Virus record (IMG/VR): IMGVR_UViG_3300010160_000025
Span: 88,809 to 152,808 of that record
Strand: one strand, 5' to 3'
DNA from: a virus
Length of the DNA stretch: 64,000 nucleotides
The position numbers and the translations under genes were made by a program. Below, piece after piece: positions 40,386 through 56,326 of this stretch. Under the pieces are notes generated by a model. The model did no database searches. It saw nothing but the letters and a program-made list of their open reading frames with translations, and was not told the DNA's origin. The number at the start of each line of letters is the position of its first letter. The first letter of the stretch is position 1.

Positions 40386-40930
40386 TTTAAGATAGTGTCA
40401 TTTTTGTAATCTGCCCACGGGGTGAACTTCTTACGGTCTTGGAGATCGTGTAGGCTATGAGACCACACGCCGGGATTAGTTGCTTTAAAATCTTTGTCAT
40501 CAATTTTAAGCATTGTATTATAATTCCATAATTTAATATAAGGAATTGGAACTCTAATTTGTGGAATAAAGTTTGCATAATCATTTAACCCACCATCGTG
40601 AAACTCTTCTACTGCACTTAATGGGATATCTAATGAGCATAGATAGTCTCGATCTAAGAAATAGGTAATCATTTCTTCCCACGATTTCCAACCTTCATAG
40701 TCATTCCATTGCGGATTAAAACTATGATTAGCACCAAAGAAAATATGTTTAATATGCTTACTAGTATCAAGTAAACAGTTTTCATCTCCAAGCAAATGTT
40801 CAATCACTTGCTCGTTATGAATACCGGTAACAAACAAGGTACGCATACCAAACGCAGGAGTATGTTCTACTTCATTACCAATGAAGAAGTTTACTGCTTC
40901 ACTTACGCCATCTGTATAATCACGTTTCAT
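40382..40930 (-). CDS. Unknown protein between QueD-like and DpdA-like genes, 182 aa
   Basis: I do not recognise the family. It has VEHTPAFGMRTLFVTG near the N-terminus, HIKHIFFGANHSFNP, LCSLDIPLSAVEEF and a C-terminal RVPIPYIKLWNYNTMLKI strand set with many aromatic residues, suggesting an alpha/beta fold. It overlaps the DpdA-like gene and the QueD-like gene by 4 bases each, so it is made in the same operon. A role in the deazaguanine pathway (base processing or delivery) is a reasonable guess from position only. Confidence 0.7.
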   Translation of the reverse strand: MKRDYTDGVSEAVNFFIGNEVEHTPAFGMRTLFVTGIHNEQVIEHLLGDENCLLDTSKHIKHIFFGANHSFNPQWNDYEGWKSWEEMITYFLDRDYLCSLDIPLSAVEEFHDGGLNDYANFIPQIRVPIPYIKLWNYNTMLKIDDKDFKATNPGVWSHSLHDLQDRKKFTPWADYKNDTILK

Positions 40931-42459
40931 TCAAATAAACTCGGGTTAAGTATAATTTCTTTAGGTTCAACTTTGGCTTTCTTTTCTGGTTCTAGGTTAG
41001 CTTCGATTTCAAAATGTATGTCTGCATGTGTTTGTGCATTTACAGTCTTTTTACCTGTTGCGCCTCTAGTACCAATAATACTCATCCAGTATCTGCTGTA
41101 TTCTTCTACAACAGCATCGGCAATGCCTCTATCACTGGTTGAAAATATTGCTTCTACTATGTCCTTATAATACACTCTATCAAAGCGTTCGTCAACTAAC
41201 ATGGATGGCAATTTGCCCAAATCATATTGTCGATTGGCTTCCTGTACCGCATTGATATGCATCCAAACATTATGTCCCATCATTAGTGCATAGCTAAAAC
41301 TATCCCAACTAGTACGACCTTCTTTACCATTCTTATTTAGGTCGCCTGGCTTATAGATACAAATATCTTTCATTTGCATTTGATCAATGATTGGACTTGA
41401 TTCAAATTTTTCAAATATCTTGTCTTGTAGTACAGCATCTTTAAATAATCTGGTATCAGTAGCATACTTTTTATCATCAGCTGATGCTTGCATACGATAG
41501 ACCCATTTAGTACGATCGTCTGTTTCGGTGTTAATATAAATCTGCCCATTAGCAGTTGCTAAGAATGGACTTGCACAGTCAAAGCTAATAGTAAACTGAC
41601 TATTATGATGTTTACGTACAGCACGTTGAATGTCTGTTAATAGAACAGCCCACTCTAACTTACTAGTACCTAAAAAGTGCATCCAGTCTTGATGGCCTTT
41701 TTCTAACAACCCATCAAAACGTAGTGCTACTAGACGTTTAAGTACTAAGTGGATATCACACATATTCTGTCCACCCATACCCCAACCGTTAAATGCACGG
41801 TCGCCATAGATTGTTGGGTCACTGTATTTCTTCATATGCTGATACCAACCTTCGGCATCAGCATGGTTCTCGCCTTGAAGAACATTTAAAAACTTACAGT
41901 TGCCATTACGATTGTTAATAAAATATTCATTATTAATAAACGTACCTTGTACTGCTTCGTTATATGTACTAATACCAGTAGCCGCACGTCCTGCCGGGCT
42001 ACGAGCGACCCACGCAGGAATGTCAAGACCCATGCCATAGTCCATTAGACTATCCATCCAAGTTAAAACTTGTTTACGCTTCAATGCGGCTTTAGGACAG
42101 TTAGGATCTTTCCAATCAGCAGGCCAAACACCTTTACCGATCTGGAATCCACCCGAGTCACCTAATACCCAACTGGTATTACGATCACGATTACGGAACA
42201 TGTCTTCAGTTTCGTCTGGTTTATTAAGGTCTAAGTTAGCATGACCTGCTGAATACAAACAGTGATCAAAGTAAAACTGACCCTTGTCTGGATTAAGATA
42301 GTTAAGGCTTTCCACACCATTAGCAAGACTTGGAGGAATACGTGCAGGATCTACATAGTTTCCATAGCGTTGTTTGCCTATGAATGTACTATAGAATCCT
42401 GACGTAGCTGGCAAGAAATATGCGTAATCGCTTTGCGTTGCTGTTAGATTTTTATTCAT
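40927..42459 (-). CDS. dpdA: DpdA-like DNA transglycosylase (TGT fold)
   Basis: The 510-residue protein follows the tRNA-guanine transglycosylase (TGT) motif order: DSGGFQ (residues 101-106, general acid Asp), a LNVLQGE strand (TGT: VQGG), WGMGGQNMCD, HFLGTSK (TGT: LMGVG) and SFDCASPF (nucleophile region, Asp294; TGT: FDC). The usual C-terminal zinc Cys cluster of TGT is not evident. DpdA enzymes exchange guanine in DNA for a 7-deazaguanine and this modification blocks host restriction in other phages. The C-terminal 150 residues are phage-specific. Neighbours are a QueD-like protein and an unknown protein, with FolE and QueE elsewhere in the window. Confidence 0.85.
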   Translation of the reverse strand: MNKNLTATQSDYAYFLPATSGFYSTFIGKQRYGNYVDPARIPPSLANGVESLNYLNPDKGQFYFDHCLYSAGHANLDLNKPDETEDMFRNRDRNTSWVLGDSGGFQIGKGVWPADWKDPNCPKAALKRKQVLTWMDSLMDYGMGLDIPAWVARSPAGRAATGISTYNEAVQGTFINNEYFINNRNGNCKFLNVLQGENHADAEGWYQHMKKYSDPTIYGDRAFNGWGMGGQNMCDIHLVLKRLVALRFDGLLEKGHQDWMHFLGTSKLEWAVLLTDIQRAVRKHHNSQFTISFDCASPFLATANGQIYINTETDDRTKWVYRMQASADDKKYATDTRLFKDAVLQDKIFEKFESSPIIDQMQMKDICIYKPGDLNKNGKEGRTSWDSFSYALMMGHNVWMHINAVQEANRQYDLGKLPSMLVDERFDRVYYKDIVEAIFSTSDRGIADAVVEEYSRYWMSIIGTRGATGKKTVNAQTHADIHFEIEANLEPEKKAKVEPKEIILNPSLFE

Positions 42460-43597: not shown

Positions 43598-46267
43598 TTA
43601 AAACTCAAAGAGTTGATTAAAAGTGTTTTTTTCTTCCGTACTCTTAATGTCCCAACCTAAAACTCCAATTAAGTTTTCTAGTTTGTTGTCAATAATAGTC
43701 TGTTCCATTTCTGCGTCGTCAAACGGTAATTCCATAAACCATTTAGGCAAACGTAATTCGTCTACTGGATATGCAACCGAAGTGAAGCCAATTGGATTTG
43801 GCTTTAGTTTACAAACAATGACTTTTTGTCCGTCTGTAATCTGCATAGAATACTTGTCTCCATTCATACGGCGTAGTGTATTCCAATTGATACTTGCTCG
43901 AACATGTCCGGGCATATTGGCTTTACCTGCTTTTGCTTCTTTAGCCTGATAGTCCGTAATGTTGTTAGCACGTTTAGGACTGCCCTTCTCCCATCCTGGC
44001 CTAGCTTTAAACTCACTGCGGAATCGGGTAATGTGTTCTAAAACTTCATCCTCTGAGCCAGCAGTTAACACACGTTCTAAAATATCACTCAAGAAATTCT
44101 GAATAAATTCAGGGGTATCACTGCGTTTTAAATCTAAACCCATAGCCTTAATCTTACCAGGCTTGCCATCTATATCTGTACGCTTGCCTTCTTTATCAAA
44201 GTAAAGAACAGCATAACGCTTCTTAGTAATGAATAAGCCTTTAATAGCAACAATTTCTCGACCGGCTTTAATAACTTCTCCGCGACTATGCGGACAATGA
44301 AACGCATCTTCCATAAAGCTGGGGAATGTTTTATTAACTTCGTTGCCGACTTGGTCATACAATGCAATAACGTTTTCTTTAGTCCAAGGGATAGCACCGG
44401 AGTCAATGTCTTTCTTTAGCGTTGTATATCCAGAGAAATAACAGGAGTCAGTATCACCGTAGATAATAGCTTTACCACGATAATCAAAATCGCCTGTAAT
44501 AATCTCGTTCACCTTACCAGCCATATGTTTAACAATTTGTCGTCCTGTTAGGGTAGTTGACTGTCCAATACGCTTGTCAAAGAATCTACAACCAGCGTTA
44601 AGGATAGCACCGTACAGACTATTTAGGTTAATCTTCTTAACTAACTGTCTTTTATCCCAATATTCTTCTTCGACTTTGTTTTCTGCTTTGATACAATCTT
44701 TAAGTTTGGCCTGCATTTCTTTACGTTCAGCATACCAACGCTTTAACAGTCCCGGAATAATACCTTCTTTTTCATAGGTAAAGATAGTGCCGTTAGCACT
44801 AATCATCCATGGTTGATTACTGTCAAAGATTAACTTGTAGACTTCGGCGGCAGAGTGTTCGGTGTTATTACCATCTTCCCAATCAATGGTAATAGTTTTA
44901 TCAATACGTTGTTCCATAACATATTGATATTCTAATGATCCAAACATACCTTCCCAACTTGCGGCAAATGACTTTTTCTTAAGTGTCATTTGTTCGTGGA
45001 TAAAGTTATCAGTTTCAGTTTGACGTAACTGTCCAACAATAGTCTCTGGACCCATGTTAAGCGCACGAATGGCTGACGGATAAAGACTGTTAATATCTAA
45101 AGAACCAATCCATTCGTGAATACCTTCTTTGGGATAAGCAACATACGCACCTGCGGCGCTGTTGTCAGCATCTTCGTCACGCTTTTGTCTATTAGGAACT
45201 TGGAATCCTCTACGATGACATTCATTAATAATAGCCTGTTCAGTAACAGCAACAGCACCCATTGTGGTCTGTAGCAATACAGTACACTCGTGTGCTAGTG
45301 TGTTGGCAAGATCAATAAATTTTAGTTTATCATCTAGTTTGTTTAACAGTAGTGTATCTTGTCTGTTATAGATAATAAATTTGTGAAAGTCATTGTTGTA
45401 CAACTGATCAAGGGTACCTTCGTAGACAGTTTTGTTTTCTCCTACTTCCATTTCACCAATAGCATCTAATCGATATGTATGGCGTTCTTCATATGTATAT
45501 TTGCGATATAGTTCAAGACTATCTAAATGTACACGACCGTGAAAGTCATATGTAACAGCCTGCTTCCCATATTTTTCATATTCACGTTTCTTGGGTAACT
45601 GTCCCCATAGACAGAAGCGTTTGGTATCTTCTTTGCTTAATACACGAGTAACACGATTAACAGTATACGGAACGTCATAGCCTTCGCTGTTCCAACCACT
45701 GATAATGTCAGCGTCTTGGATTAAGTCCAAGAATGTTTCTAACATATCACCTTCATTGTCAAACAAATGTGTATCCGGAATATCAGACACTAGTTTAACA
45801 GCATCTTCCATCTTCATGCCTTTAGGAGGCATTGCTAGTGTAATTAACTTCTTCATCCATTTTAGGTAAACAGTAATCGCAGTGATTGGCATGAACGCAT
45901 CTTCTGGAGTGCTGTAGCCACGTTCTGGATCAAAGTCTACCTCAATGTCGAAGAAGCAGATATTTAATTTAGGCGCATCTTGATTTAGATAATTTTCAGA
46001 TAAGTGTACAAAGATTGGATTAATATCACTTTCGTACAATTCTTTATTTGAAGCAATAGAAACTTCTTTCCGGAAGTCTTTAGTGTTCTTGCATACTACC
46101 TTAGTAAGTGGATCACCATAAATGCTAGTAAACTTGCCTCGTTGATCCGGGTAGTAAAATGTGTAGCGTACAGGGTGCTCTTTATAGACCCGTTCGCCTT
46201 TATTGTTTCTTTCGACGACTTTAATAGTGTCGTTCTCTCTGTCAAAGAGAGCATCTACATAACTCAT
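43598..46267 (-). CDS. 43: Family B DNA polymerase (T4 gp43-like)
   Basis: This is the replicative polymerase, with 5'-3' synthesis and 3'-5' proofreading. I start it at ATG 46267 (MSYVDALFD) because TAAGGAG stands five bases upstream; the open frame reaches back to a TTG that has no site. The protein is 889 aa, close to T4 (898). Motifs in order: Exo I FFDIEVDF (residues 105-112), Exo II SGWNSEGYDVPY, Exo III YNRQDTLLL, Pol A SLDINSLYPS, Pol B KINLNSLYGA, Pol C YGDTDSCYF, and TKKRYAV. Two tandem hairpins lie immediately upstream of the ribosome site and may control translation. Confidence 0.95.
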   Translation of the reverse strand: MSYVDALFDRENDTIKVVERNNKGERVYKEHPVRYTFYYPDQRGKFTSIYGDPLTKVVCKNTKDFRKEVSIASNKELYESDINPIFVHLSENYLNQDAPKLNICFFDIEVDFDPERGYSTPEDAFMPITAITVYLKWMKKLITLAMPPKGMKMEDAVKLVSDIPDTHLFDNEGDMLETFLDLIQDADIISGWNSEGYDVPYTVNRVTRVLSKEDTKRFCLWGQLPKKREYEKYGKQAVTYDFHGRVHLDSLELYRKYTYEERHTYRLDAIGEMEVGENKTVYEGTLDQLYNNDFHKFIIYNRQDTLLLNKLDDKLKFIDLANTLAHECTVLLQTTMGAVAVTEQAIINECHRRGFQVPNRQKRDEDADNSAAGAYVAYPKEGIHEWIGSLDINSLYPSAIRALNMGPETIVGQLRQTETDNFIHEQMTLKKKSFAASWEGMFGSLEYQYVMEQRIDKTITIDWEDGNNTEHSAAEVYKLIFDSNQPWMISANGTIFTYEKEGIIPGLLKRWYAERKEMQAKLKDCIKAENKVEEEYWDKRQLVKKINLNSLYGAILNAGCRFFDKRIGQSTTLTGRQIVKHMAGKVNEIITGDFDYRGKAIIYGDTDSCYFSGYTTLKKDIDSGAIPWTKENVIALYDQVGNEVNKTFPSFMEDAFHCPHSRGEVIKAGREIVAIKGLFITKKRYAVLYFDKEGKRTDIDGKPGKIKAMGLDLKRSDTPEFIQNFLSDILERVLTAGSEDEVLEHITRFRSEFKARPGWEKGSPKRANNITDYQAKEAKAGKANMPGHVRASINWNTLRRMNGDKYSMQITDGQKVIVCKLKPNPIGFTSVAYPVDELRLPKWFMELPFDDAEMEQTIIDNKLENLIGVLGWDIKSTEEKNTFNQLFEF

Positions 46268-46278
46268 ATTTCTCCTTA

Positions 46279-46325
46279 TGTCATTTAGGGCTGACAAATA
46301 CCAATGCAGTCATTTATGGCTGACT
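46279..46325 (-). promoter_or_regulatory. Tandem stem-loops before the DNA polymerase start (possible translational operator)
   Basis: On the - strand there are two 18-base hairpins, 46325-46308 and 46296-46279, each with a 5-bp stem and an 8-nt loop. The stems are AGTCA/TGACT and TGTCA/TGACA; the outer pair differs (A-U against U-A) yet still pairs. The loops are GCCATAAA and GCCCTAAA. The TAAGGAG ribosome site follows the second stem immediately. In T4, gp43 represses its own translation by binding a hairpin with a 5-bp stem and 8-nt loop beside the ribosome site. Loop bases differ from T4's. Confidence 0.6.
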
Positions 46326-46336
46326 AAACCTTTCTC

Positions 46337-46630
46337 TTAATTACTTAGCATCCTAATCAAGCCTATACTATCAATAGTGGTCAACAGTATATAGTTAGCC
46401 AACATACCAAAAGATTTCCTAGTCCAACTAGCCCAAGCATACATGGCACAGCCAGTGATCCAAATAGGATAAAGAATAATAAGCGGTGGAGTAGGGACTG
46501 TGAGCGCCATAGTAATACTGCAACCAATACTAATAGCCCAAGCGAGCAACTCAACGCAAAAACGTAGAGGATGACTAGACCAATCATCTCTAATCCATTG
46601 TAGAGTTGGAGCAAATATTGTAGCAATCAT
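46337..46630 (-). CDS. Membrane protein, 97 aa
   Basis: Three hydrophobic helices: FCVELLAWAISIGCSITMAL, PLIILYPIWITGCAMYAWAS, MLANYILLTTIDSIGLI. No motif of a known transporter. The start overlaps the DsbA-like gene (ATGA), and the gene ends 12 bases before the polymerase leader hairpins. A membrane protein of this size beside the polymerase gene is seen in other T4-like phages; function unknown. Confidence 0.75.
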   Translation of the reverse strand: MIATIFAPTLQWIRDDWSSHPLRFCVELLAWAISIGCSITMALTVPTPPLIILYPIWITGCAMYAWASWTRKSFGMLANYILLTTIDSIGLIRMLSN

Positions 46631-46887
46631 TTATCCTTGCCTACAGTTACGATCAAAGTTTCAAGATCGTCAAAGTCGCTGAATACGTCATTCCAGTTAC
46701 CTTTATGTGCAATGGAAATAGCTTTATTAATTAGTGCGGGTTTGATTTCTAACTCTTCGGCAACTGCTTTAACAGTTTCTTTGAGTCCTTCTGACAGGCT
46801 TTCCATTTCATATTTGATTTGAACGCCTTCGTTGATAAGTCTTTCTAGCTTGGCCTTTTCTTCTGGTCCATAGGTACGTGCGCCCAT
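46627..46887 (-). CDS. dsbA: DsbA-like double-strand DNA-binding protein
   Basis: 86 residues, almost all helical: YGPEEKAKLERLINEGVQIK, LSEGLKETVKAVAEELEIKP, then NKAISIAHKGNWNDVFSDFD. The size and helix-turn-helix look match the small dsDNA-binding protein DsbA of T4-like phages, which helps late transcription. A TTGACA/TATAAT promoter lies upstream and the gene overlaps the membrane gene by 4 bases. The identity is from overall pattern, so moderate. Confidence 0.6.
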   Translation of the reverse strand: MGARTYGPEEKAKLERLINEGVQIKYEMESLSEGLKETVKAVAEELEIKPALINKAISIAHKGNWNDVFSDFDDLETLIVTVGKDK

Positions 46888-46909: not shown

Positions 46910-46938
46910 ATTATATAGCCTTGCGTTGACAGTGTCAA
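46910..46938 (-). promoter_or_regulatory. Sigma70-type promoter with a palindrome at -35
   Basis: On the - strand: TTGACA, 17 bases, TATAAT. The -35 lies in a perfect 15-base palindrome (GTTGACA G TGTCAAC, 46925-46939), so a dimeric regulator could bind here. The transcript would lead into dsbA and on to the polymerase. Confidence 0.75.
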
Positions 46939-46945
46939 CTATATT

Positions 46946-47260
46946 TTATCCAATGTTTGGATCAATGCCTCTTGAACGGACGCCACCTTTTTTACGTTGC
47001 GCGGCCAGTTCTTCTAGACCATGTCTAATCTGTTCAACGTTCATTGCTAGTTCTGAAAAGTTTTTAGAAATCGTTTCCCATTCTAATGGACTAGCGTGTT
47101 CTGCTCTTTTAGCAAGATCCTTTAACTGACCTGCCGCACGTAGCATACGATATTGTAGCTTGCCTGGATTAGCGCCTTGATGACTATGTACTAAGGGATT
47201 CATTGGCTCACTAGGATCAAAGTCAATAGGTGCTTCTGTTAATAGTTCGTTTATTTTCAT
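46946..47260 (-). CDS. Putative packaged protein with targeting peptide, 104 aa
   Basis: Begins MKINELLTEAPID: L-T-E at residues 7-9 fits the (I/L)-x-E cleavage site of T4 gp21 protease. The rest is helical with MNPLVHSHQGANPGKLQYRM and NFSELAMNVEQIRHGLEELA. It overlaps the next CTS-type gene by 4 bases, and ends shortly before the dsbA promoter. The call as an internal head protein is an inference from its N-terminus. Confidence 0.6.
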   Translation of the reverse strand: MKINELLTEAPIDFDPSEPMNPLVHSHQGANPGKLQYRMLRAAGQLKDLAKRAEHASPLEWETISKNFSELAMNVEQIRHGLEELAAQRKKGGVRSRGIDPNIG

Positions 47261-47640
47261 ACGCCGTATTTGTTTCTTTTTGGTTTAGCTACTGGACTTG
47301 TTTTATGTGTACCAGGAAGTTCTTCACTACGTTTACCAGTCCAGTTTTCTGGAACACCTCCGCCTACAGCCTTAGCGGCAGCTTTGACCATATCCATTTC
47401 TTCTTTAGTATACGGTGATAGTAAAGGATCACCACCAATCCAGTTATCTGCTTCCATCTTGGTAGGATAATCAGGTGCGCCTGCAAGAGCAATACCCATG
47501 CGCCAACCTAAGTAGGCACTTCCTGTACTTTGATTCATACTAGGAAATGTCATAACATTTCTTATCGCGGCTTTATGTGTAGGATCAATCTTCTTTGTCC
47601 CACCGTGGCCTTGTTCAATAATAAATTCTTTTGCTCTCAT
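47257..47640 (-). CDS. Putative packaged protein with targeting peptide, 127 aa
   Basis: Begins MRAKEFIIE, very close to the T4 internal-protein leader MKTYQEFIAE, with I-I-E as the expected cleavage site. The body has HKAAIRNVMTFPSMNQSTGS, AYLGWRMGIALAGAP, YTKEEMDMVKAAAKAVGGGV and a basic end (KTSPVAKPKRNK). Nothing catalytic. A GATAAATA late box lies only 5 bases before the ATG and I see no ribosome site, so the mRNA could be leaderless. Confidence 0.65.
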   Translation of the reverse strand: MRAKEFIIEQGHGGTKKIDPTHKAAIRNVMTFPSMNQSTGSAYLGWRMGIALAGAPDYPTKMEADNWIGGDPLLSPYTKEEMDMVKAAAKAVGGGVPENWTGKRSEELPGTHKTSPVAKPKRNKYGV

Positions 47641-47645
47641 AGTAA

Positions 47646-47653
47646 TATTTATC
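47646..47653 (-). promoter_or_regulatory. Late-type promoter box GATAAATA
   Basis: On the - strand GATAAATATTACTATG: the box overlaps the desaturase stop codon and lies five bases before the next ATG. Confidence 0.5.
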
Positions 47654-48347
47654 TAAGTTTAGCTAGTCTAAGCGTTTTAAATATGGTAAACCACATCCAA
47701 CCCATGTCAAACTCAAACCAACTTCTGCTTAGTTTAGGATTAGCTGGATTAAGGTGATGATTATTATGTAGCTCTTCACCGCCGATAATAATACCCCAAG
47801 GGCTAATATTGCGGCTTTGATCCTTTGTTTCGCCGTTACGATACCCAACCCAATGTCCGACTCCATTGATAACACCAGCGGCCCAGAATGGTATCCATAT
47901 CATTTGTACACCCCACACTATAAGGCCTAACGGCCCAAATAACAATAAGTTTATAACTAACATTAGGAGAATGCCCAGGCGACTGTGTTGGGTGTACACG
48001 TTGCGTTCAATCCAATCATCGGGTGTGCCTACACCGTATTGTTGGATCATTTCAGCGTCTTTACTTGCAGAATGATACAATCCTGCACCTTTAAATAATA
48101 CATGCCATATACCATATACATGCGGACTATGAGGATCACCGGGTTCGTCACTAAATCTGTGATGTTTTCGATGTATAGCTACCCACTGCTTAGTAACCAT
48201 TCCGGTTGTTAGCCATAACCAGAAGCGCATAAAGTGTTCTAGTACAGGATTAAAAACAAATCCCTTATGCGCTTGCCCTCTATGTAGGAACAGGGTAACG
48301 CAGACAATTGTGATATGTGTTACTATTAGCGTATATAATATAATCAT
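47649..48347 (-). CDS. Fatty acid desaturase (acyl-CoA/lipid type)
   Basis: 232 residues with the three His boxes of membrane desaturases: HRGQAH, HRKHH and EELHNNHH, and several membrane helices (IILYTLIVTHITIVCVTLFL; LGILLMLVINLLLFGPLGLI). These enzymes add a double bond to fatty acyl chains using a di-iron centre. The sequence looks complete, about as short as bacterial delta-9 type enzymes allow. Within a late virion-gene block it could alter host membranes before lysis. A CTAAATA box and an odd GC-rich segment precede it. Confidence 0.9.
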   Translation of the reverse strand: MIILYTLIVTHITIVCVTLFLHRGQAHKGFVFNPVLEHFMRFWLWLTTGMVTKQWVAIHRKHHRFSDEPGDPHSPHVYGIWHVLFKGAGLYHSASKDAEMIQQYGVGTPDDWIERNVYTQHSRLGILLMLVINLLLFGPLGLIVWGVQMIWIPFWAAGVINGVGHWVGYRNGETKDQSRNISPWGIIIGGEELHNNHHLNPANPKLSRSWFEFDMGWMWFTIFKTLRLAKLR

Positions 48348-48351
48348 CTAA

Positions 48352-48358
48352 TATTTAG
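48352..48358 (-). promoter_or_regulatory. Late-like box CTAAATA before the desaturase
   Basis: CTAAATATTAG lies four bases before the desaturase ATG on the - strand. It resembles the GATAAATA boxes but lacks the first two bases. No ribosome site is visible. Confidence 0.35.
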
Positions 48359-48360
48359 CC

Positions 48361-48470
48361 GTAAAAAAATGCTCACTTTCAGGATTCCCGGTAGCGAATC
48401 GGGCCGTCCTGCGCCAGCAGCCGGCGCACACTTGAGTCAGTAACGAGTACTGGTCCTAAGGTAGTGTGTT
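48361..48470 (-). ncRNA. GC-rich structured segment, candidate RNA or leader
   Basis: This gap between the HAD gene and the desaturase is much richer in G and C than its surroundings and has no gene. Read on the - strand it folds in series: a stem CACACT/AGTGTG enclosing CAGTA-CTCGT-TACTG, then TGCGCC/GGCGCA with a 7-nt loop, then CCCG/CGGG, and a seven-T run (48362-48369 area). On the + strand it contains GGTCCTAAGGTAG and GCCAGCAGCCG, short strings found in 23S and 16S rRNA. No tRNA cloverleaf was found. It could be a small RNA or a control leader of the desaturase. The strand is assumed. Confidence 0.4.
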
Positions 48471-48472
48471 CT

Positions 48473-49234
48473 TTAATGTTTCTTTGCTCGCCCTGCTTTC
48501 ATATTTGCTAACCAGTGTGCTAGTTGACCTTTACGGCCACCTTGTTTAGCAGTTTTACGTAAACTGCTTACTGATGCTTTAGTGTTAATGCCGTGACGTT
48601 TAGCATCACCTTTATCTTCTGGGTGCTTTCCATCAGCAAAATTTTCATCGGTACGTTGATATTCGCTTGCTTTGCCCTCTAAGCTAACATGCCAGGCATA
48701 GAACTTGGTCTTTGGATATTCTTTCTTAAGTTCTACAAATGATTCTAAGTTAGGAACAGCATCATCATACATTATGGCTTTAGTATAAATGTCCTTGTCT
48801 AACAAGTTACGTATAATAATTTTTTTCTTTTCTTCTGTTTGAATCTTGCCAGTCATATTGCCTGCACGATAAACATGAACTTTTGCCATGTCTACACCAT
48901 ACTTGCGGAATGTATCTAAGAATAGCTCTTTATCATCAAAGTCAGCACGAGCAGTTACCATTACTACTTTGTTACCAGTAGCGATGTCTTGCTTGAGTTG
49001 ATTCATCATTGGAATGATCGGTTTACTTTTGTGGAAAAAGTCATGTGCGTTACGAAAGTTCTCAAAATCAAACTGTTCTCCCGGTTGTAGTTTATAGTGT
49101 GTAAACTCATGACTGTTAAGTTCTTTAGTTACCTGTCCGTCTTTGACCACGTGGACTTTAGTTTGTGTATGAACCAGCGTGTCATCTATATCAAAGATAA
49201 CTAGTTTTTTTGGCTGGAACTCTTTTGCTCGCAT
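48473..49234 (-). CDS. HAD-superfamily phosphatase with basic C-terminal domain
   Basis: Starts at ATG 49234 (MRAKEFQPKK), which overlaps the preceding stop as TAATG. It has the HAD nucleophile motif LVIFDIDDTLVHT (about residues 11-23), VVMVTARADF (second motif) and AIMYDDAVPNL (third). The first six residues equal the packaged-protein leader MRAKEF, but the cleavage site is missing. The C-terminal 60 residues are basic (DKGDAKRHGINTKASVSSLR, then GGRKGQLAHWLANMKAG), a phage-type domain. HAD enzymes of this type act on nucleotides or polynucleotide 3' phosphates; substrate unknown. Confidence 0.82.
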   Translation of the reverse strand: MRAKEFQPKKLVIFDIDDTLVHTQTKVHVVKDGQVTKELNSHEFTHYKLQPGEQFDFENFRNAHDFFHKSKPIIPMMNQLKQDIATGNKVVMVTARADFDDKELFLDTFRKYGVDMAKVHVYRAGNMTGKIQTEEKKKIIIRNLLDKDIYTKAIMYDDAVPNLESFVELKKEYPKTKFYAWHVSLEGKASEYQRTDENFADGKHPEDKGDAKRHGINTKASVSSLRKTAKQGGRKGQLAHWLANMKAGRAKKH

Positions 49235-49956
49235 TAACAGTTCCAACGACGACGTGCCGCACAGATTGCCTTATCTGGAGTCTTTGAACAATCTATATGA
49301 TGCATACGTTTTTGTCCAGCGGATCTAGAACAATAACTTGATCGACGCTTGGCACTTTTGCTACCTCTTTTTAGTTTACTAGGTTTAGTCGTTACGGCAG
49401 TTTTTAGTTTGCTACCTGGATTTTCTCTACGATAGGCATTGACAGCCTTTTGACTCATGCCCGAAGTCTTATCGTGTTTGTTAACTTTCTGCCAATCTTC
49501 ATTAACTGGTTGTGTAACAGCAAACACATATAGCTCATCGTCTGTGAGTGTTTCTAAATCTTCCCAGACAGCATCTTCGTTAACACCATTACGTAAAGCT
49601 AGGTTGGATATAATCGATTCAATAAGATCAAACTCTTCTTCTAGCTCTGTGCTTTCGTTCTTTACACAGTTACGTACTGAACCGTTCTTACCTTTCTTTG
49701 TACCTGCGGCATGATATCCGGACCAACATTTAGTAAAGCCGTTGCTGTCTTTGGCACCTTTTTTAATTTCACTAAGATTGCCATGGGATTCACACATGTT
49801 GCAATCAGGGCAGACCATTTCCATTTCAACACTTTCGTTGTGTTTCTTTCTGCCGGCACAGTGAGCACGTTGACTAAAGCCTTTAGGATGCGAGCAGTTA
49901 ATACTCTTTTTGTATTTCTGACTCCATGATTCGATTATAAATTCACTTGCTCTCAT
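49234..49956 (-). CDS. Cys-rich protein with targeting peptide and basic C-terminal domain
   Basis: I start at MRASEFIIES (49956), which gives I-I-E at residues 7-9. Cys-rich parts follow: INCSHPKGFSQRAHCAGRKK and MVCPDCNMCESHG (possible zinc ribbon), TKCWSGYHAAG. The end (MSQKAVNAYRRENPGSKLKT, then many Lys/Arg and Cys, ending ARRRWNC) looks like the DUF6321-type DNA-binding domain of related phages. The combined picture is a DNA-binding protein that may be packaged. It is coupled to the HAD gene by TAATG. Confidence 0.65.
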   Translation of the reverse strand: MRASEFIIESWSQKYKKSINCSHPKGFSQRAHCAGRKKHNESVEMEMVCPDCNMCESHGNLSEIKKGAKDSNGFTKCWSGYHAAGTKKGKNGSVRNCVKNESTELEEEFDLIESIISNLALRNGVNEDAVWEDLETLTDDELYVFAVTQPVNEDWQKVNKHDKTSGMSQKAVNAYRRENPGSKLKTAVTTKPSKLKRGSKSAKRRSSYCSRSAGQKRMHHIDCSKTPDKAICAARRRWNC

Positions 49957-50089
49957 AATCTTGTAAATCTCCAATAGTCAAAGGAATACCAGCTAGGCCG
50001 CACCCAAACAATGCTAGGCCATTATACAGGGCTGTAAGGGTTGCGAGGACGGTCGGTGCCATCATCTTCTGGATAGACTGGATATTCAT
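49943..50089 (-). CDS. Possible small hydrophobic protein, 48 aa
   Basis: In the gap after the Dps gene, a frame from ATG 50089 reads MNIQSIQKMMAPTVLATLTA followed by LYNGLALFGCGLAGIPLTIG and ends inside the next gene's start. GAGAG precedes the ATG. Its hydrophobic core could span a membrane. A second frame in another phase (ATG 50099, 25 aa, MRENEYPVYPEDDG) overlaps the Dps stop as ATGA and is an equal candidate; probably only one is real. Confidence 0.35.
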   Translation of the reverse strand: MNIQSIQKMMAPTVLATLTALYNGLALFGCGLAGIPLTIGDLQDYESK

Positions 50090-50095
50090 TTTCTC

Positions 50096-50539
50096 TCATT
50101 TTAATGTAGAACGTAGGAACCAGCTGTGCTTGCGGTGTGCATCTTGACGATCAGCTAAGAAGTTAGATAGACCAAACTCGCCTGCGGCATCAGCCATTTT
50201 ATAAACCATTGCCATTAACTGTGCTAGTTTATCACTGTCAGCTAACAGTTCAGCAGTCATTGATCGTGGATCAATAACTTGATTCTCATCTTCCACTGTG
50301 GTTAACATACTAAATCTAGATAAGCTAGCAGGAGTGTATGCACCGCTTTTACGAATATTTTCTGCAAATGCATCAATACTTCCGTAAACTTCGTCATAGA
50401 TTGTTTCAAACAACAAATGAAACTCGTAAAAGTCTGGACCTTCAGTGTTCCAATGAAAGTTTTGTGCTTTTAATGCAAATGCATATTCACTGGCAAATGC
50501 TATTTTTAATGCGTTGATTAACTGTTCCATATTAGCCAC
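50096..50539 (-). CDS. dps: Dps-like ferritin
   Basis: 147 residues with the Dps signature: a four-helix bundle opening with LKIAFASEYAFALKAQNFHW, with ferroxidase His in NFHWN, then the Asp/Glu positions in FETIYDEVYGSIDAFAENIR, and the C-terminal helix EFGLSNFLADRQDAHRKHSW. Dps binds iron at subunit interfaces and protects DNA from oxidants. A phage copy in a late block could protect packaged DNA or detoxify the host. It overlaps the 77-aa gene by 8 bases. No targeting peptide is seen. Confidence 0.9.
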   Translation of the reverse strand: MANMEQLINALKIAFASEYAFALKAQNFHWNTEGPDFYEFHLLFETIYDEVYGSIDAFAENIRKSGAYTPASLSRFSMLTTVEDENQVIDPRSMTAELLADSDKLAQLMAMVYKMADAAGEFGLSNFLADRQDAHRKHSWFLRSTLK

Positions 50540-50765
50540 ATATCTGTATTACTGCATAGATGCCTGTGACTAACATGGCCTTAAGAGCCATATCGTCTGC
50601 TTCTGCATCTAATCTATCTGTTCTAACCAAATCTTCTAATAACTCTTTTGCTTCACTTGGATCAATCTGTCCAGATTCTAATGCCTGTCCAATCTGATAT
50701 GCTGTATTAGCACGTTCAGCCGCCCAGCCTTTACCTGAGTTAATACATTGCATAAGTTCGTTCAT
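50532..50765 (-). CDS. Helical protein, 77 aa
   Basis: Four short helices: MNELMQCINSGKGWAAERAN, YQIGQALESGQIDPSEAKEL, LEDLVRTDRLDAEADDMAL, ending in a hydrophobic AMLVTGIYAVIQICG that could touch a membrane. Function unknown. It overlaps the lipoprotein gene upstream by one base. Confidence 0.72.
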   Translation of the reverse strand: MNELMQCINSGKGWAAERANTAYQIGQALESGQIDPSEAKELLEDLVRTDRLDAEADDMALKAMLVTGIYAVIQICG

Positions 50766-51154
50766 TAGAATCTCCCTAGTACTACACTAGCCGCACGTTC
50801 GGCCTGTGTAGTCATTAACTTTTTCTTAATCTCGCAATAGGTATCGCTACCTTGCTTTTCACTTGTACTACGTTTGTAAAAATCATCTACAGTTTCTTGC
50901 ATTGGTTTAATCAAACGCAATACATCGTTTTGTCTTTCGCCTTTACTAGTACTATATAGTTCAAACCATTCTAGGTTATCTTTAATCTGTTTAACTTGCG
51001 GTGCATGTGGTTGTTTGCAATCTAACTGTGCTACACTTTGACGCACATCAATAATCTTAGCTGATTGATTAACGTCTTGAAAACTAGGAATCATTTCCTT
51101 AATACTAGCACATCCAGTTAAGCACAATATTAGTGCAACAGCTAAGTATCTCAT
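50765..51154 (-). CDS. Lipoprotein, 129 aa
   Basis: A classic lipobox ends the signal peptide: MRYLAVALILCLTGCASIKE, cleaved before Cys15. The mature part is helical and charged (VNQSAKIIDVRQSVAQLDCK, NLEWFELYSTSKGERQNDVL, then DTYCEIKKKLMTTQAERAAS). It probably sits in the outer membrane, like a spanin-type or superinfection-exclusion lipoprotein, but a second spanin pair is present at 62817-63562, so its role is open. It overlaps both neighbours by one base. Confidence 0.75.
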   Translation of the reverse strand: MRYLAVALILCLTGCASIKEMIPSFQDVNQSAKIIDVRQSVAQLDCKQPHAPQVKQIKDNLEWFELYSTSKGERQNDVLRLIKPMQETVDDFYKRSTSEKQGSDTYCEIKKKLMTTQAERAASVVLGRF

Positions 51155-52008
51155 TATTCAAGACCTTTTTTAGCTTCTGTTAAATTAAAATAATCTTTAA
51201 AACTTAGACCTTCCGCCACACCTTGCTCAACACTTTCTGTTTTAGGAGCCCACCATTTGCCGACGCCAAACTCTTTATCAGCTCTGCCCTTTTGAAATTT
51301 AAAAGAATCACCGCTAGTAGTATATTTGGTCTTTGCCCACTTACCACTTTTTGTTTTCTTAACACCTAAACTTGCGGCAAGTTCTTCTTGACCTGGTTGT
51401 ACATTATAAAAGAACATGCCAGTCATTACAGGTCTGTCTTGCGGAGCTTGATAACGTTGACCACGTGGCTCATTAGGATATTCATCATATCCGCCGCCTT
51501 GAGGATTGCCATCACTGTCATACCCTTTTGGCCCATTAGTTCTACCCATACCACTTACGCTACTTGCATAATCTCTATCGTATGCTGTTGGACTACCAGG
51601 TTTGCGGAATGCACCAGCTTCATCAACTTGTTCTTCTGTGCTTTCGCCCATGCTGTCGTTAAACATGTCTGGTTGTAGAATACCTTTGCCAACATTGTGA
51701 TAAGCAGTCATGAACGCATTAAACTTATCCATCATGTCACGTAGGCTAGCTTCGTCTGCGTTAATCTTAATCTTATTGACCTGTGCCATTACTTCGTCTT
51801 GGATAGTATCAGCAGCCAATAAGAACGCATTAGCATCACCGCCTACTGAACCTTCTTCAAAACTTGTAATAACAGATTCTTGTGTAGGTGTATATGGATT
51901 ACTGCTTTCTCGAATAATAGATACAAATTTTTTCATATCATTAGCACCTTGAACAGGCTTCTTCGTAGTTGCCCCGTCAAAGGCTTGTAATATCTTCTTC
52001 ATATCCAT
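51154..52008 (-). CDS. Putative processed head or core protein, 284 aa
   Basis: The chain has two internal elements that look like the targeting leader: MKKFVSIIRE near residue 25 and GLSFKDYFNLTE near the C-terminus; both end in an (I/L)-x-E site. Between them are a helical part (DTIQDEVMAQVNKIKINADE), a Gly/Tyr/Pro-rich stretch (PKGYDSDGNPQGGGYDEYPN) and a Lys-rich domain (SLGVKKTKSGKWAKTKYTT). Several cleavage-type sites in one chain fit a head-core protein that is cut by the prohead protease. Function is inferred. Confidence 0.6.
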   Translation of the reverse strand: MDMKKILQAFDGATTKKPVQGANDMKKFVSIIRESSNPYTPTQESVITSFEEGSVGGDANAFLLAADTIQDEVMAQVNKIKINADEASLRDMMDKFNAFMTAYHNVGKGILQPDMFNDSMGESTEEQVDEAGAFRKPGSPTAYDRDYASSVSGMGRTNGPKGYDSDGNPQGGGYDEYPNEPRGQRYQAPQDRPVMTGMFFYNVQPGQEELAASLGVKKTKSGKWAKTKYTTSGDSFKFQKGRADKEFGVGKWWAPKTESVEQGVAEGLSFKDYFNLTEAKKGLE

Positions 52009-52020
52009 TTTGTCTATTCC

Positions 52021-53061
52021 TTATTTGGCAGCGTTTTTCCACATAGCGGCAGCGGCAATCTTCTTACCTTTCTCACCACCACCTGCGGCTTTAGCTACCT
52101 TGTCAAAGCTCTTGCCTGGTTTGCCAACGTCACCGCCTGCCTTAGCTTTTTTAACTAATGCTGACTTAGCACCTTTACTCATGCCTGCGCTTGGCTTTGC
52201 CGCTTCGTATGCCATTGTACTACCACATTCTTTTAGACCGTGTACTGGACACTTCTCACCTTTAGCAGAGTGATTGCATTTGCCATCAGCTTCTTTTAAA
52301 CGTCCGTCTTTTTCAGCTGACTTTAACATTGCCGCACGATCTGCATAGCTACCACGCTTGACATCTTTAGCGGCTTTCTTCTCACCTGGAGTAGGATTCT
52401 TAACGTGCTTTAGCGGATCAAACTTTGCTTCAGCAACGCCTTTGCCACTGTAGTTTTTACCAGCAGTATGTTTGATACCGGTCTTGGTCTTTTCAATAGT
52501 ACCACCAGTGCTAGACTTTTTCTTTTCGCCTGGCTTCATGCCTGCTGTACCCTGTGCATTTTTCTTTGCATCATCGACAGTTGGGAAACCTTCTTTGAAT
52601 GGCTTGCCTGCTTTTGCCGCAGCCTTGGCACGTGATCCCCAAACTTCATCTTTGTTTGTTTCAACTTTGCCATCGCCATCATAATCTTTCTTGGCTTTCT
52701 TAACAGCACTTTCTAATAGTGCCTGTAGTTTTTGTTCGTAGTTCATAGATTCTTCCATTTCCATTTTTTCGTCATCGGCTTCTTCTGCGGCACGAGCGGC
52801 AGTTTCCATATCTCCAGTAATGTCATCAACACTTGACGCAACTGCGCCTTGTCCAAACTTTACTTGATATTCCATATAGTGGTAGATACTGTCTAAGTAA
52901 TCTGCCGCTTTAGTAATCTTTGCTTGTACCCAACCTTCTAACTGTTGGTTATTCTGAATCATTTGAAACAGTTTCATAGAGTGCTTGGCAGCTCTATATA
53001 GGTCAGCACGGGCCATTCCGCCTTCGTCATCTGGTCCTTGCATTTGTACTTGTGGTTGCAT
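52021..53061 (-). CDS. Protein with EF-hand-like loop and Cys/His cluster, 346 aa
   Basis: After a helical head (LYRAAKHSMKLFQMIQNNQQ) and an acidic linker it has LQALLESAVKKAKKDYDGDG KVE..., an EF-hand-like calcium loop (Asp-x-Asp-Gly-Asp-Gly). The middle is rich in Ala/Lys with repeated motifs. Later CNHSAKGEKCPVHGLKEC holds three Cys and two His, a likely zinc site. L-L-E in the linker region is a possible protease site. It is preceded by a GATAAATA late box with a normal leader and GGAG. Similar Lys-rich DGDGK proteins occur in T4-like aquatic phages. The function is unknown, probably virion-associated. Confidence 0.7.
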   Translation of the reverse strand: MQPQVQMQGPDDEGGMARADLYRAAKHSMKLFQMIQNNQQLEGWVQAKITKAADYLDSIYHYMEYQVKFGQGAVASSVDDITGDMETAARAAEEADDEKMEMEESMNYEQKLQALLESAVKKAKKDYDGDGKVETNKDEVWGSRAKAAAKAGKPFKEGFPTVDDAKKNAQGTAGMKPGEKKKSSTGGTIEKTKTGIKHTAGKNYSGKGVAEAKFDPLKHVKNPTPGEKKAAKDVKRGSYADRAAMLKSAEKDGRLKEADGKCNHSAKGEKCPVHGLKECGSTMAYEAAKPSAGMSKGAKSALVKKAKAGGDVGKPGKSFDKVAKAAGGGEKGKKIAAAAMWKNAAK

Positions 53062-53084
53062 GAGGTAACTCCGTTGTCTTTATG

Positions 53085-53092
53085 TATTTATC
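53085..53092 (-). promoter_or_regulatory. Late-type promoter box GATAAATA
   Basis: On the - strand GATAAATACATAAAG, in the 3' end of the upstream gene, followed by a 24-base leader with GGAG and the ATG of the 346-aa gene. Confidence 0.5.
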
Positions 53093-53420
53093 GTTTTAAG
53101 CTGCCACCAGTAAGTAAGTTAGTACCCTTAACATCTAATGCATTTTTTGTTGTACCGTCTTTATTCTTATTAGTTTTACCTGTTTTGTTAGGGTATACTG
53201 GCCCAACTCCTACGTTAGCCGCACTAGTAGCACCTGCACTAGCAGATTCAGCCATTTCATAGTCTTTATTCTTGTGTTTAGCATCACCTTGCTTTGCGGC
53301 TTTCTTTTTGTCTTTATGTGCGCCAGCGCCAGTATTGATAGCATTTTTAGCTACAAAGTTACGTGGCTTGGGTGTTTCGGCTTTTTTAGTTTTTGCTTCT
53401 AATAGTTCGCGCATTTTCAT
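53088..53420 (-). CDS. Basic protein with targeting peptide, 110 aa
   Basis: Start at ATG 53420 (MKMRELLEAK), with GAGGAAAATATT before it. L-L-E is the expected cleavage site. The body is Lys/Ala-rich (AKNAINTGAGAHKDKKKAAK) and ends NLLTGGSLKR. It is largely disordered and basic, as are the T4 internal head proteins that enter with DNA. Inference only. Confidence 0.65.
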   Translation of the reverse strand: MKMRELLEAKTKKAETPKPRNFVAKNAINTGAGAHKDKKKAAKQGDAKHKNKDYEMAESASAGATSAANVGVGPVYPNKTGKTNKNKDGTTKNALDVKGTNLLTGGSLKR

Positions 53421-53454
53421 AATATTTTCCTCATGCAATATTTAATATATTTTT

Positions 53455-53862
53455 CTAATCTTTATTTGTATTAGCACGTTGTAAATCTATTCTATAACTT
53501 TTAATACCTTTTTCTTTTAACCATTTAGCAACAGCTTTTTCTGCTTCTGCCGGACTTTGATATTCAGTACCTAGATTGATTTCTTTTTCAATCGTCTTGC
53601 CATTTACTGTCATAGTAATATGAGCAACAATATCGGGAAGTTTATATTCTACATCGTTAGCATGAGCCGGTGTTCCTAACATATTTGCCGCTGCCATTGC
53701 GGCACCTGCAACTTTAGTTTTCCAACCTTCGTCTAGGTCTTCTGTTGTATGGGGCGCTTCTGCTTTCTTTGGCTTGATTGGTTCAATAAACTTCTTAGGT
53801 TTCTTGTTATATTTTTTAGCACGAATGCCTTTTTTATGTTCAAACAGTTCACGTAAAGTCAT
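53455..53862 (-). CDS. Protein with targeting peptide, 135 aa
   Basis: Begins MTLRELFEHKKGIRAKKYNK: L-F-E at residues 6-8 is the expected cleavage site and a basic stretch follows. The second half is a compact domain (DIVAHITMTVNGKTIEKEIN, AEKAVAKWLKEKGIKSYRID). It overlaps the next gene by 4 bases. The fold is alpha/beta; function unknown. Confidence 0.65.
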   Translation of the reverse strand: MTLRELFEHKKGIRAKKYNKKPKKFIEPIKPKKAEAPHTTEDLDEGWKTKVAGAAMAAANMLGTPAHANDVEYKLPDIVAHITMTVNGKTIEKEINLGTEYQSPAEAEKAVAKWLKEKGIKSYRIDLQRANTNKD

Positions 53863-54146
53863 ACGGGAGGTTCTCCGGTAAGATAAGGACGACTAAACCA
53901 TAACTTAAACCATTCTTTAGTTCCAGGTTGTATGTTATGCTTCTTCATTAGTTCGCCCTTGCTATCTCCAGTAACACTTATGTTACTACCTTGATTGGCA
54001 CGATACTCGTGTAGTCTAGCTTCTGCACCTAGTCCGCCCATACCTGATAATATTTTTAGTTCATGTACAGGATCATTGGGCGCAAGATAACAATCATCAG
54101 GACTATCCTGATTTAAATCTTGACTTGTTATCTTATATTGTTTCAT
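53859..54146 (-). CDS. Hypothetical protein with C-terminal EWF motif, 95 aa
   Basis: It has no targeting leader. Near the C-terminus is MKKHNIQPGTKEWFKLWFSR; a similar GTNEWFRHML lies at the end of the Pol-beta-like protein at 56323. The repeated G-T-x-E-W-F element may bind a common partner. It overlaps both neighbours by 4 bases. Function unknown. Confidence 0.62.
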   Translation of the reverse strand: MKQYKITSQDLNQDSPDDCYLAPNDPVHELKILSGMGGLGAEARLHEYRANQGSNISVTGDSKGELMKKHNIQPGTKEWFKLWFSRPYLTGEPPV

Positions 54147-55174
54147 TTTACTAGTCTAAATGCTTTGAGATTTTTACGGGGTGTACCTTTGTTTACATCC
54201 ACAGTTGAATTCTGTTTAGTAATGATACCTACACCTGCGGCATCTTCGTGCAATCCAAAGCCTTCACGTATATCGTTCATTAATTCACTAACACTTGCTT
54301 CAGTATTGGGTAGATTACCTTTATAAGCATCATCAATATGAGGATCACCGTCTTCTACTGTACCTAGTGCATAATGAAACATGTTGTTACCTGCATTTTC
54401 TATGATAACAAAATAAAACTGATCGTCAGTTTCTTGACCTTTAGTTGAGAACATAAACGCATCATCGCCTTTACGTTGACCTTTCCAACCCATAGCCCTC
54501 ATTGCGCTGTTAACTTTGTTTGCAACTTCTGGCCACTCTAATGCAGTTCCTAAGGTGGCTTCTGTTACGCCTTCCACAGGAGCCGCAACTTTTTTCTTTG
54601 CTACTTTCTTTACAGGTGCATTAGAGTATGGTAGCAGGTATTCTGCTACTAGATCAAAGAACGGTTTACCAGCTACAGGAGTATCAGCATCTACACCAGC
54701 GGCAGTGGCAAACGCTTCACGATCACCTTTAGAAACTGCATCACGTAATGCTGTAGCTGAACTTAAACGTGGTGTTGGTTTTTGTTTAATAGTTTTAAAA
54801 TTATAGAAACCGTGTGCGCCTTCTTTACCATTATACTGTACAATGGTTTTAGTAACCCAATCTTCATCAGTTAGACATAGTAGTGTAACATCACCGTGTT
54901 TTTCATAGACCAGACTGGCTAGCGTTAGCCATGATGTTTCTGCAATAATATGTCCTTCAACTTCTGGCCATATAGCAGTCATTGCTTCTACCTTAATGCC
55001 GTAAGGCAATGGATCTTTTGGACCTACTGTGCTTTCGTTAGTACCTACATACCAAACAGGACTCTTAGCGGCAAGTTCCCATGCGGCTCTATGTCCCTTG
55101 TGCGGAGGATTAAAGCGACCAAATATAATGGCAACTTCTTGTCCTAGCCCTTCAAATATCTGTCTTAGTTTCAT
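54143..55174 (-). CDS. Cytidylyltransferase-like nucleotidyltransferase with targeting peptide
   Basis: The leader MKLRQIFE has I-F-E as a cleavage site. The catalytic domain follows: IIFGRFNPPHKGHRAAW with the HxGH-type motif HKGH (residues 25-28), WYVGTNESTVGPKDP, and LSSATALRDAV (the second, ISSTxxR-like motif). This is the nucleotidylyltransferase fold used by NadD/NadM, CTP:phosphate and similar enzymes. The C-terminal 130 residues are a separate domain (MRAMGWKGQRKGDDAFMFST). Neighbours are another nucleotidyltransferase and a KxDG ligase-like protein, so the three may act together on nucleic acid or NAD. Confidence 0.8.
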   Translation of the reverse strand: MKLRQIFEGLGQEVAIIFGRFNPPHKGHRAAWELAAKSPVWYVGTNESTVGPKDPLPYGIKVEAMTAIWPEVEGHIIAETSWLTLASLVYEKHGDVTLLCLTDEDWVTKTIVQYNGKEGAHGFYNFKTIKQKPTPRLSSATALRDAVSKGDREAFATAAGVDADTPVAGKPFFDLVAEYLLPYSNAPVKKVAKKKVAAPVEGVTEATLGTALEWPEVANKVNSAMRAMGWKGQRKGDDAFMFSTKGQETDDQFYFVIIENAGNNMFHYALGTVEDGDPHIDDAYKGNLPNTEASVSELMNDIREGFGLHEDAAGVGIITKQNSTVDVNKGTPRKNLKAFRLVK

Positions 55175-55183
55175 AATAAGTCC

Positions 55184-56326
55184 TTAGGTCGGCGTCCAAC
55201 GCTTGCGAGGTACAAGTTTAACGTGACCTAGCTGTTTATTTTGATCCGCATATCGAACACGACCTTCGCCATTTGTGTCCCATATCTCACCCTGTTCGCC
55301 TTCGATTTGATCAATGATGTCGTCTTTCATTGCTTGTATTCTTTTTACCAGTGTAAAGATAGTTGCTAGTGCAGTTGGGTTTGCCGCAACTAGATCATTA
55401 ATCTTTTGTTGTTTGCCTGGACTAGTCTTTGATACAGCTAACCAATCTGTAAAATGTTTTGGACTTAGACTGTCTAACTGTTTTGCTTTGGCAGTTTGAT
55501 TTACATAAGTGTAGATAATATTTTTTAGGTCGCTTAGTCCCGGAAGCCCTTGTAGGAATCCATCCATTTGACCACCGTGCGCCTGTGCAAACTGCTCAAT
55601 GGCATCGACTGCTGTAGTATCAATCTTAACAGGCTTGCTGTTGTATATTGGGCCAAGAACAATTAACTGTGGATTACTATTGAACTGACTGAAGTCACTG
55701 ATAGGCTTTTGACTAGCATCTGGCATACCAAACTCTGGAAAAAACGCATGTCCCACTACCATTACTTGTGCATTAGCAATACGCTTACCTAATCCGCTAT
55801 TGGATCTCACATGATAACATGTTTGACTTTTATTATTGGGACAAAAGTTATATATGCCTTCTTTATCTGCTGGAGGTTGTTGTAAGAACAAACCATCTGC
55901 ATATACAAAGCCCACGAAGTCTCGTGGAGTAGCTTTGTCAAACAGGGGATACAGACTAGCGAACTCGCTGGCAAATTTATCTCTTGCTTCTTTCTCTTCG
56001 GGAGTTTTTGGACTTCCCGACTTATTGGCAATAAAATCTTGTACTGCTTCTGGACTATCTGTTACAGCACCTTTGCTCCAACCATTATGTCCTGCAAGTA
56101 TTAAAGGACCGTTAGCCTCAGCACGGCCCCAATATATTTGTGGATTACCGTCCCACTTCATACGAATACTATTAGCTCCTTCTTGACTAGCAAAATCTTT
56201 GATATGACTTAGTGCTTCAAGTGTGCCTTTAGTACCGTGAAAGAAAACTAGATCTTCTAGGTGGTTAAATGCTCGACCTAACTGTTTAGGTGCTTCTGCT
56301 TCTTTAAACAGTTGTCTTAATCTCAT
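55184..56326 (-). CDS. KxDG ligase-like nucleotidyltransferase (DUF6267 type)
   Basis: 380 residues. After MRLRQLFKEAEAPKQ it has HLEDLVFFHGTKGTLEALSH and then NSIRMKWDGNPQIYWGRAEA: K57-x-D-G is the motif I of covalent nucleotidyltransferases such as DNA and RNA ligases. DFVGFVYADGLFL and a late HVKLVPRKRW could be motifs IV and V. The leader F-K-E is less clean than in its neighbours. Ligase activity is inferred; capping-type activity is another option. Confidence 0.7.
   Translation of the reverse strand: MRLRQLFKEAEAPKQLGRAFNHLEDLVFFHGTKGTLEALSHIKDFASQEGANSIRMKWDGNPQIYWGRAEANGPLILAGHNGWSKGAVTDSPEAVQDFIANKSGSPKTPEEKEARDKFASEFASLYPLFDKATPRDFVGFVYADGLFLQQPPADKEGIYNFCPNNKSQTCYHVRSNSGLGKRIANAQVMVVGHAFFPEFGMPDASQKPISDFSQFNSNPQLIVLGPIYNSKPVKIDTTAVDAIEQFAQAHGGQMDGFLQGLPGLSDLKNIIYTYVNQTAKAKQLDSLSPKHFTDWLAVSKTSPGKQQKINDLVAANPTALATIFTLVKRIQAMKDDIIDQIEGEQGEIWDTNGEGRVRYADQNKQLGHVKLVPRKRWTPT

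Follow-up and report, generated by a model that had tools for sequence, protein, structure and literature searches.

The polymerase leader and its two hairpins

Does the short leader of a phage DNA polymerase gene carry a translational operator, and is that operator of the kind known from T4? The question is raised by a window of 64,000 nt (the whole stretch of DNA analysed), which comes from a virus record of 152.8 kb and encodes a family B DNA polymerase with Pfam matches to PF00136 (DNA_pol_B) and PF03104 (exonuclease domain) and a PHROG match to phrog_262. The closest solved structure is that of RB69 polymerase (1clq, E = 6.4e-65), and the protein is homologous to gp43 of RB69 and T4; its nearest annotated phage counterparts belong to giant phages, i.e. 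Sinorhizobium phage Phosso (52%), Agrobacterium phage Atu_ph07 (47%) and Escherichia phage 121Q (43%). The mechanical ORF list puts the first start of the polymerase ORF at a TTG (46297), but on sequence grounds the start is the AUG at 46267, as the N-terminus MSYVDALF is conserved and UAAGGAG precedes it. The preceding ORF stops at 46337, leaving a 69-nt gap that is nearly filled by the putative operator structure (Table 1).

A first-pass annotation had described two 18-nt hairpins in this gap and proposed that they form a translational operator of the T4 gp43 type. Re-reading the sequence located both hairpins exactly where they had been placed on the minus strand, with an outer pair that changes from A-U to U-A between the copies while pairing is kept, and with the second stem ending at the base next to the Shine-Dalgarno sequence. 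It also revealed a feature absent from that annotation, a GGU on the 5' side of each stem that is complementary to the GCC of the loop.

Table 1. Positions in the window of the leader elements and of the genes and sites discussed in the text
Feature	Position	Strand	Remarks
Family B DNA polymerase gene	43598..46267	minus	889 aa; AUG 46267-46265; begins MSYVDALF
Shine-Dalgarno UAAGGAG	46272..46278	minus	right after pseudoknot 2; adjacency kept in relatives
Pseudoknot 1, S1 5' strand GGU	46327..46329	minus	pairs with loop GCC; pairing kept in all genuine relatives' units
Pseudoknot 1 hairpin AGUCA-GCCAUAAA-UGACU	46307..46324	minus	18 nt
Pseudoknot 1, S2 AGUCA/UGACU	46324-46320 with 46311-46307	minus	
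Pseudoknot 1, S1 3' strand GCC	46319-46317	minus	
Pseudoknot 1, L3 AUAAA	46316-46312	minus	A-rich
Pseudoknot 2, S1 5' strand GGU	46300..46302	minus	pairs with loop GCC
Pseudoknot 2 hairpin UGUCA-GCCCUAAA-UGACA	46279..46296	minus	18 nt
Pseudoknot 2, S2 UGUCA/UGACA	46296-46292 with 46283-46279	minus	
Pseudoknot 2, S1 3' strand GCC	46291-46289	minus	
Pseudoknot 2, L3 CUAAA	46288-46284	minus	
FolE	34665-35435		
QueE-like protein	30730-31587		
Protein with DSGGFQ motif	40927-42459	minus	510 aa
DsbA-like protein	46627-46887	minus	86 aa
Sigma-70 type promoter	46910-46938	minus	TTGACA-17-TATAAT
Genes sharing an N-terminal motif	46946-57084	minus	
DesA-family desaturase	47649-48347	minus	

The folding energy of the leader was ordinary (MFE z = 0.06; 103/200 shuffles folded as well). 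A motif search of the window allowing up to 3 mismatches gave 3 sites, two of them exact matches, against 1.7 expected, and Rfam had no family at gathering score in the window and none at E up to 1 for positions 46200-46400. As the energy of the window's own sequence gives no support, the case has to be made entirely by comparison with relatives.

Covariation of the hairpin stem

We collected the leaders of 66 IMG/VR relatives and, with later sets, 208 distinct leaders; the close relatives are all uncultivated metagenome contigs, many of them fragments. Both units were present in 126 of the 133 distinct leaders of the closer clade in IMG/VR. The seven exceptions include several in which an ORF is inserted between leader and polymerase, and two (L319 and L320) that are intermediate to a sister clade.

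The sequence of the hairpin stem (S2) varies while its pairing is held, e.g. GUCA/UGAC, GUGA/UCAC, GCGA/UCGC, GCCA/UGGC, GCAA/UUGC, GCGG/CCGC, AUCA/UGAU and GUCU/AGAC, among others, and some first copies contain a one-base bulge, e.g. GC[U]GG/CCGC. Across 40 distinct units 96% of cells were paired and all five pairs had changed on both sides, giving a covariation score of 0.79 against 0.29 in shuffles; none of 500 shuffles scored as high, and the score also exceeded that of every slid register. When mapped on the polymerase tree, each S2 pair of the first hairpin required 9-22 parsimony changes; in the second hairpin, the pair second from the loop changed 34 times and the third 30 times. The check proposed by the first-pass annotation, a search for compensatory change across relatives' leaders, was therefore positive at all five S2 pairs, and one of the results it had named as refuting, a sequence that is kept while pairing is lost, is the reverse of what was found, i.e. 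the stem sequence varies and the pairing stays.

A second, crossing helix

Comparison of the units gave the layout 5'-GGY - L1 (1-3 nt) - S2 (4-5 bp, any sequence) - GCC - L3 (NNAAN) - S2'. GGU lies 1-3 nt upstream of the stem in nearly all units and the loop nearly always starts with GCC, so that the first three bases of the loop can pair with the upstream GGY as a 3-bp helix, S1. S1 and S2 abut with no L2, the A-rich L3 of 5-6 nt spans S1, and an L1 of 2-3 nt lies opposite a 5-bp S2; loops of these lengths can span the grooves of a minimal H-type pseudoknot. The AA of L3 was fixed by the later search patterns, although the first leaders, which were gathered via the polymerase alone, already have it.

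In a search that did not require GGY, this motif was found within reach of 331 of the 332 GCC hairpins, the exception (L339) not being a unit; GGY was present in 14% of random 8-nt windows from the same leaders. The 331 of 332 is the unbiased figure for S1. Because MAFFT misaligned GGY where L1 was shorter, S1 was otherwise counted on equal-length units, a set that required A/G-G at the first two positions, and here the first copies had 100% of S1 cells paired (0/500 shuffles). Pairing was retained as GGC:GCC in many phages, as GGU:ACC in three lineages (L032, L305 and L311) that each branch from within GGU:GCC relatives, and as the double change AGU:GCU in two separate lineages (L027 and L287), while true units contained no GGR, no AGU with GCC and no GGC with ACC. 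Re-dealing the observed S1 strands at random kept all pairs in 17 of 200,000 trials. S1 has only 3 bp, however, and is mostly invariant, entirely so in the aligned second copies. We therefore regard its covariation as real but modest; besides U to C changes, it comprises five clean cases other than GGY:GCC. With two crossing helices, of which S2 covaries strongly and S1 modestly, the sequence comparison indicates that each copy is a compact H-type pseudoknot.

Distribution of the element

A covariance model run over 13 records (1.55 Mb) gave strong matches solely at the polymerase leader, together with four weak matches of 15-17 bits (G002, G006, G009 and G010), and there was no confident site before other genes of the relatives either in this 1.55 Mb or in 0.96 Mb covered by a descriptor scan. 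Pattern scans of the whole IMG/VR collection were made without using the polymerase, and their counts are among the matches listed. The polymerase gene followed in 79 of 80 matches listed by the first scan, the single exception lacking the pairing, and in 119 of 120 listed by the second, where the exception was a contig end with both units present. With a pattern for the sister clade, 112 of 120 matches listed preceded the polymerase and the other eight were GC-rich sequence without the element. The element is thus common in IMG/VR, with at least 79 and at least 119 polymerase-leader matches in the two scans. A GC-rich unit pattern was also found in bacterial genomes; it looked like background, its hosts being widely scattered, and was set aside.

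A BLAST search of cultured phages with the leader gave no match, and no unit was seen in the leaders of the cultured relatives Phosso, Atu_ph07, 121Q, XbC2, SCTP-2 and 2.275.O, whose polymerases are 42-52% identical. The element is therefore characteristic of a clade, not of the polymerase family as a whole. Its near-exclusive location before the polymerase fits a dedicated operator, not a general repressor or a metabolite regulon.

Copy number and variant leaders

From the start of one loop to the start of the other the distance is 29 nt in 93 of 124 leaders; in the others it is 28, 30 or 31 nt. Two of the 124 (L339 and L357) are mis-parsed members of the sister clade. As in the window, the second copy adjoins the Shine-Dalgarno sequence in the relatives. 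The sister clade, with polymerases ∼57-65% identical to that of the window, retains a single unit, whose S2' strand is commonly CGG and in many members runs into the Shine-Dalgarno GGAG (CGGAGA). In this clade (leaders L322-L401, alignment A4) a different covarying hairpin, UCG[NNNN]ACGUUAC[NNNN]AUG, replaces the first pseudoknot; this ACGUUAC-type hairpin is possibly a second kind of operator site. In one further leader (L156) a terminator-like hairpin, AGTGGTTGATAGGTTTCAACCACTTTTTTT, substitutes for the first pseudoknot at most 32 nt upstream of the second unit, which remains.

In L326, L338, L301, L296, L345, L533 and L576, inserted ORFs separate the leader region from the polymerase. The insert resembles an HNH endonuclease in L338 and encodes small CxxC proteins in L301, L296 and L345; the inserted ORFs have ATGA-type or similar overlaps, suggesting translational coupling. 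The operator lies upstream of the insert in L326, L533, L576 and the contig of L301 (L133). Where an unrelated ORF stands between operator and polymerase, direct control of polymerase initiation would require such coupling.

Neighbouring genes

Two genes upstream of the polymerase, and also upstream in several relatives, lies a gene for a protein resembling the T4 late-transcription regulator DsbA (PF11126, E = 4e-4; PHROG 639). It is preceded by a perfect sigma-70 type promoter (12/12) whose -35 element falls within the palindrome GTTGACACTGTCAAC, which suggests a repressor site there. Further upstream, many successive and otherwise unrelated proteins share a similar short N-terminal motif (MRAKEFIIE, MRASEFIIE, MKINELLTE, MRLRQLFKE, MKLRQIFEG, MTLRELFEH, MKMRELLEA), which is reminiscent of the capsid-targeting N-termini of T4 internal head proteins. 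The replication genes also have an auxiliary metabolic gene nearby, for a DesA-family fatty-acid desaturase (NF049918, above cut-off). On the other side, a protein with a DSGGFQ motif like that of tRNA-guanine transglycosylases is kept in all seven records searched, with no Pfam or NCBIfam match; together with FolE and the QueE-like protein, it suggests 7-deazaguanine DNA modification.

Proposed function and alternatives

The structure of the element, its conservation, its specificity for the polymerase gene and its placement are established by the comparisons above. Given these and the analogy with T4, we consider it probable that the 69-nt gap encodes a translational operator of two tandem pseudoknots; its binder is probably the polymerase, which would thereby repress its own synthesis. 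The precedent is gp43 of T4, RB69 and RB49, which represses translation of its own mRNA by binding a hairpin in the corresponding position (PMC3014915). That the tandem pseudoknots act as a switch limiting the amount of polymerase is very probable, and it is likely that the polymerase itself works the switch. In the mechanism we propose, polymerase that is free or in excess over replicating DNA would bind the pseudoknots via the conserved GCC/NNAA surface and stabilise them, holding S1 and S2 shut, and the closed pseudoknots would block 30S binding. Where S2' and the Shine-Dalgarno sequence overlap, as in the sister clade, closure alone could exclude the 30S subunit. Protein binding, the polymerase as binder, repression as the effect and cooperation of the two copies are all inferred; a fixed distance between two sites could make the response sharper, but cooperativity is a guess for which this spacing is the sole support.

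The same operator might instead be bound by another phage protein, i.e. an SSB/gp32-like protein, the clamp, the clamp loader or a general repressor resembling RegA. Precedents exist in T4, where the leader of gene 32 contains a pseudoknot that gp32 itself recognises and where many replication mRNAs are repressed by RegA (PMC3014915). Even so, we think such a binder rather unlikely, since the targets of gp32 and RegA are their own genes or many genes, whereas the unit stands only before the polymerase in 1.55 Mb and almost only there among the IMG/VR matches listed. RegA targets, moreover, are without defined structure (PMC3014915); a search of six records for the RegA family gave no match, in a test whose control likewise matched nowhere. 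A switch that needs no protein, whether sensing a nucleotide or deazaguanine-type metabolite or acting by itself as an intrinsic attenuator or mRNA stabiliser, would suit the preQ1-like compactness of the units, the FolE and QueE-like genes of this phage and the DSGGFQ protein conserved beside the polymerase in 7/7 records. We nevertheless find it quite improbable, because the element precedes neither deazaguanine genes nor any other gene in the scanned records, matches no Rfam family at E up to 1, and offers little from which to build a ligand pocket, as its stem sequence is free and only GCC and AA are constant; QueC, in addition, is present in only 2/7 records.

The pseudoknots themselves could be questioned, if the leader formed simple hairpins only and GGU were conserved for a protein contact or as a standby site, unpaired with the loop. 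Most S1 pairs never vary and the aligned second copies lack S1 variation, as this reading would expect, but it becomes very doubtful in view of AGU:GCU in two lineages and GGU:ACC in three, of the mismatched combinations that are absent from true units, and of the fully paired S1 cells that no shuffle equalled. More tentatively than the polymerase-bound operator that we favour, the element might be placed in a new class of phage RNA regulator, in which tandem minimal (∼23-nt) H-type pseudoknots serve one gene in a large uncultivated clade of giant phages, with either the polymerase (in a non-T4 binding mode) or a small nucleotide-type ligand as partner; if ligand-bound, they would rank among the smallest natural switches.

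Comparison with known systems

The only replicative DNA polymerases known to us to be controlled autogenously through a hairpin in their mRNA are those of T4, RB69 and RB49, and the first RNA SELEX experiment was reportedly directed at the T4 operator. The element described here would be a second, structurally different solution to polymerase control, with over a hundred natural variants behind it that predict exactly which mutations should break and restore function. How a polymerase that copies any DNA recognises one specific RNA thus becomes testable from natural variation.

Compact H-type pseudoknots with A-rich loops resemble the aptamers of the preQ1 class, riboswitches that are likewise small and close to the Shine-Dalgarno sequence; the element differs in that it has no Rfam match, its loop pairs to the 5' side and, in the records scanned, it is found only before the polymerase gene. 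An H-type pseudoknot in the leader of a replication gene, tied to translational autocontrol, is also known from T4 gene 32 (PMC3014915). That, however, is a different gene, and its one, larger pseudoknot precedes an unstructured tract to which gp32 binds, whereas here two minimal pseudoknots with conserved loop letters stand against the Shine-Dalgarno sequence.

The closest parallel is the gp43 operator. The T4 leader reads AGCCU-AAUAACUC-GGGCU followed by UAAGGA, i.e. the 5-bp stem, 8-nt loop and position are the same as here, and Klebsiella phage KR8 (AGACU-AAUAACUC-GGUCU) has the T4 loop with a compensated stem. The shared features are the leader of a gp43-homologous polymerase, adjoining the Shine-Dalgarno sequence, and a conserved structure with a stem of ∼5 bp and a loop of 6-8 nt. 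The loops differ from that of T4 and there are two copies, as the first-pass annotation had rightly noted: the consensus here is GCCNNAAN rather than the T4-type AAUAACUC or -UAAC-, and two units at a fixed spacing of 28-31 nt take the place of a single unknotted hairpin. UAAA is present in only some first-copy loops, as reported for RB49 (PMC3014915). Upstream of the hairpin in T4 and KR8 there is no sequence complementary to the loop, in contrast to the GGY that forms the pseudoknot here. According to a review of T4, evidence of a pseudoknot in the gene 43 operator is lacking, some T4-related polymerases do not autoregulate, and no gp43-RNA structure exists (PMC3014915). Of the proposal of a T4-type gp43 operator, the part that stands is a structured, polymerase-specific element by the ribosome site, as borne out by compensatory change and near-exclusive occurrence, and the part that does not is the T4-type structure, which is replaced by pseudoknots, a GCCNNAAN loop and two copies. 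By analogy, the element probably works like the T4 gp43 operator, with a structure that is not of the T4 type.
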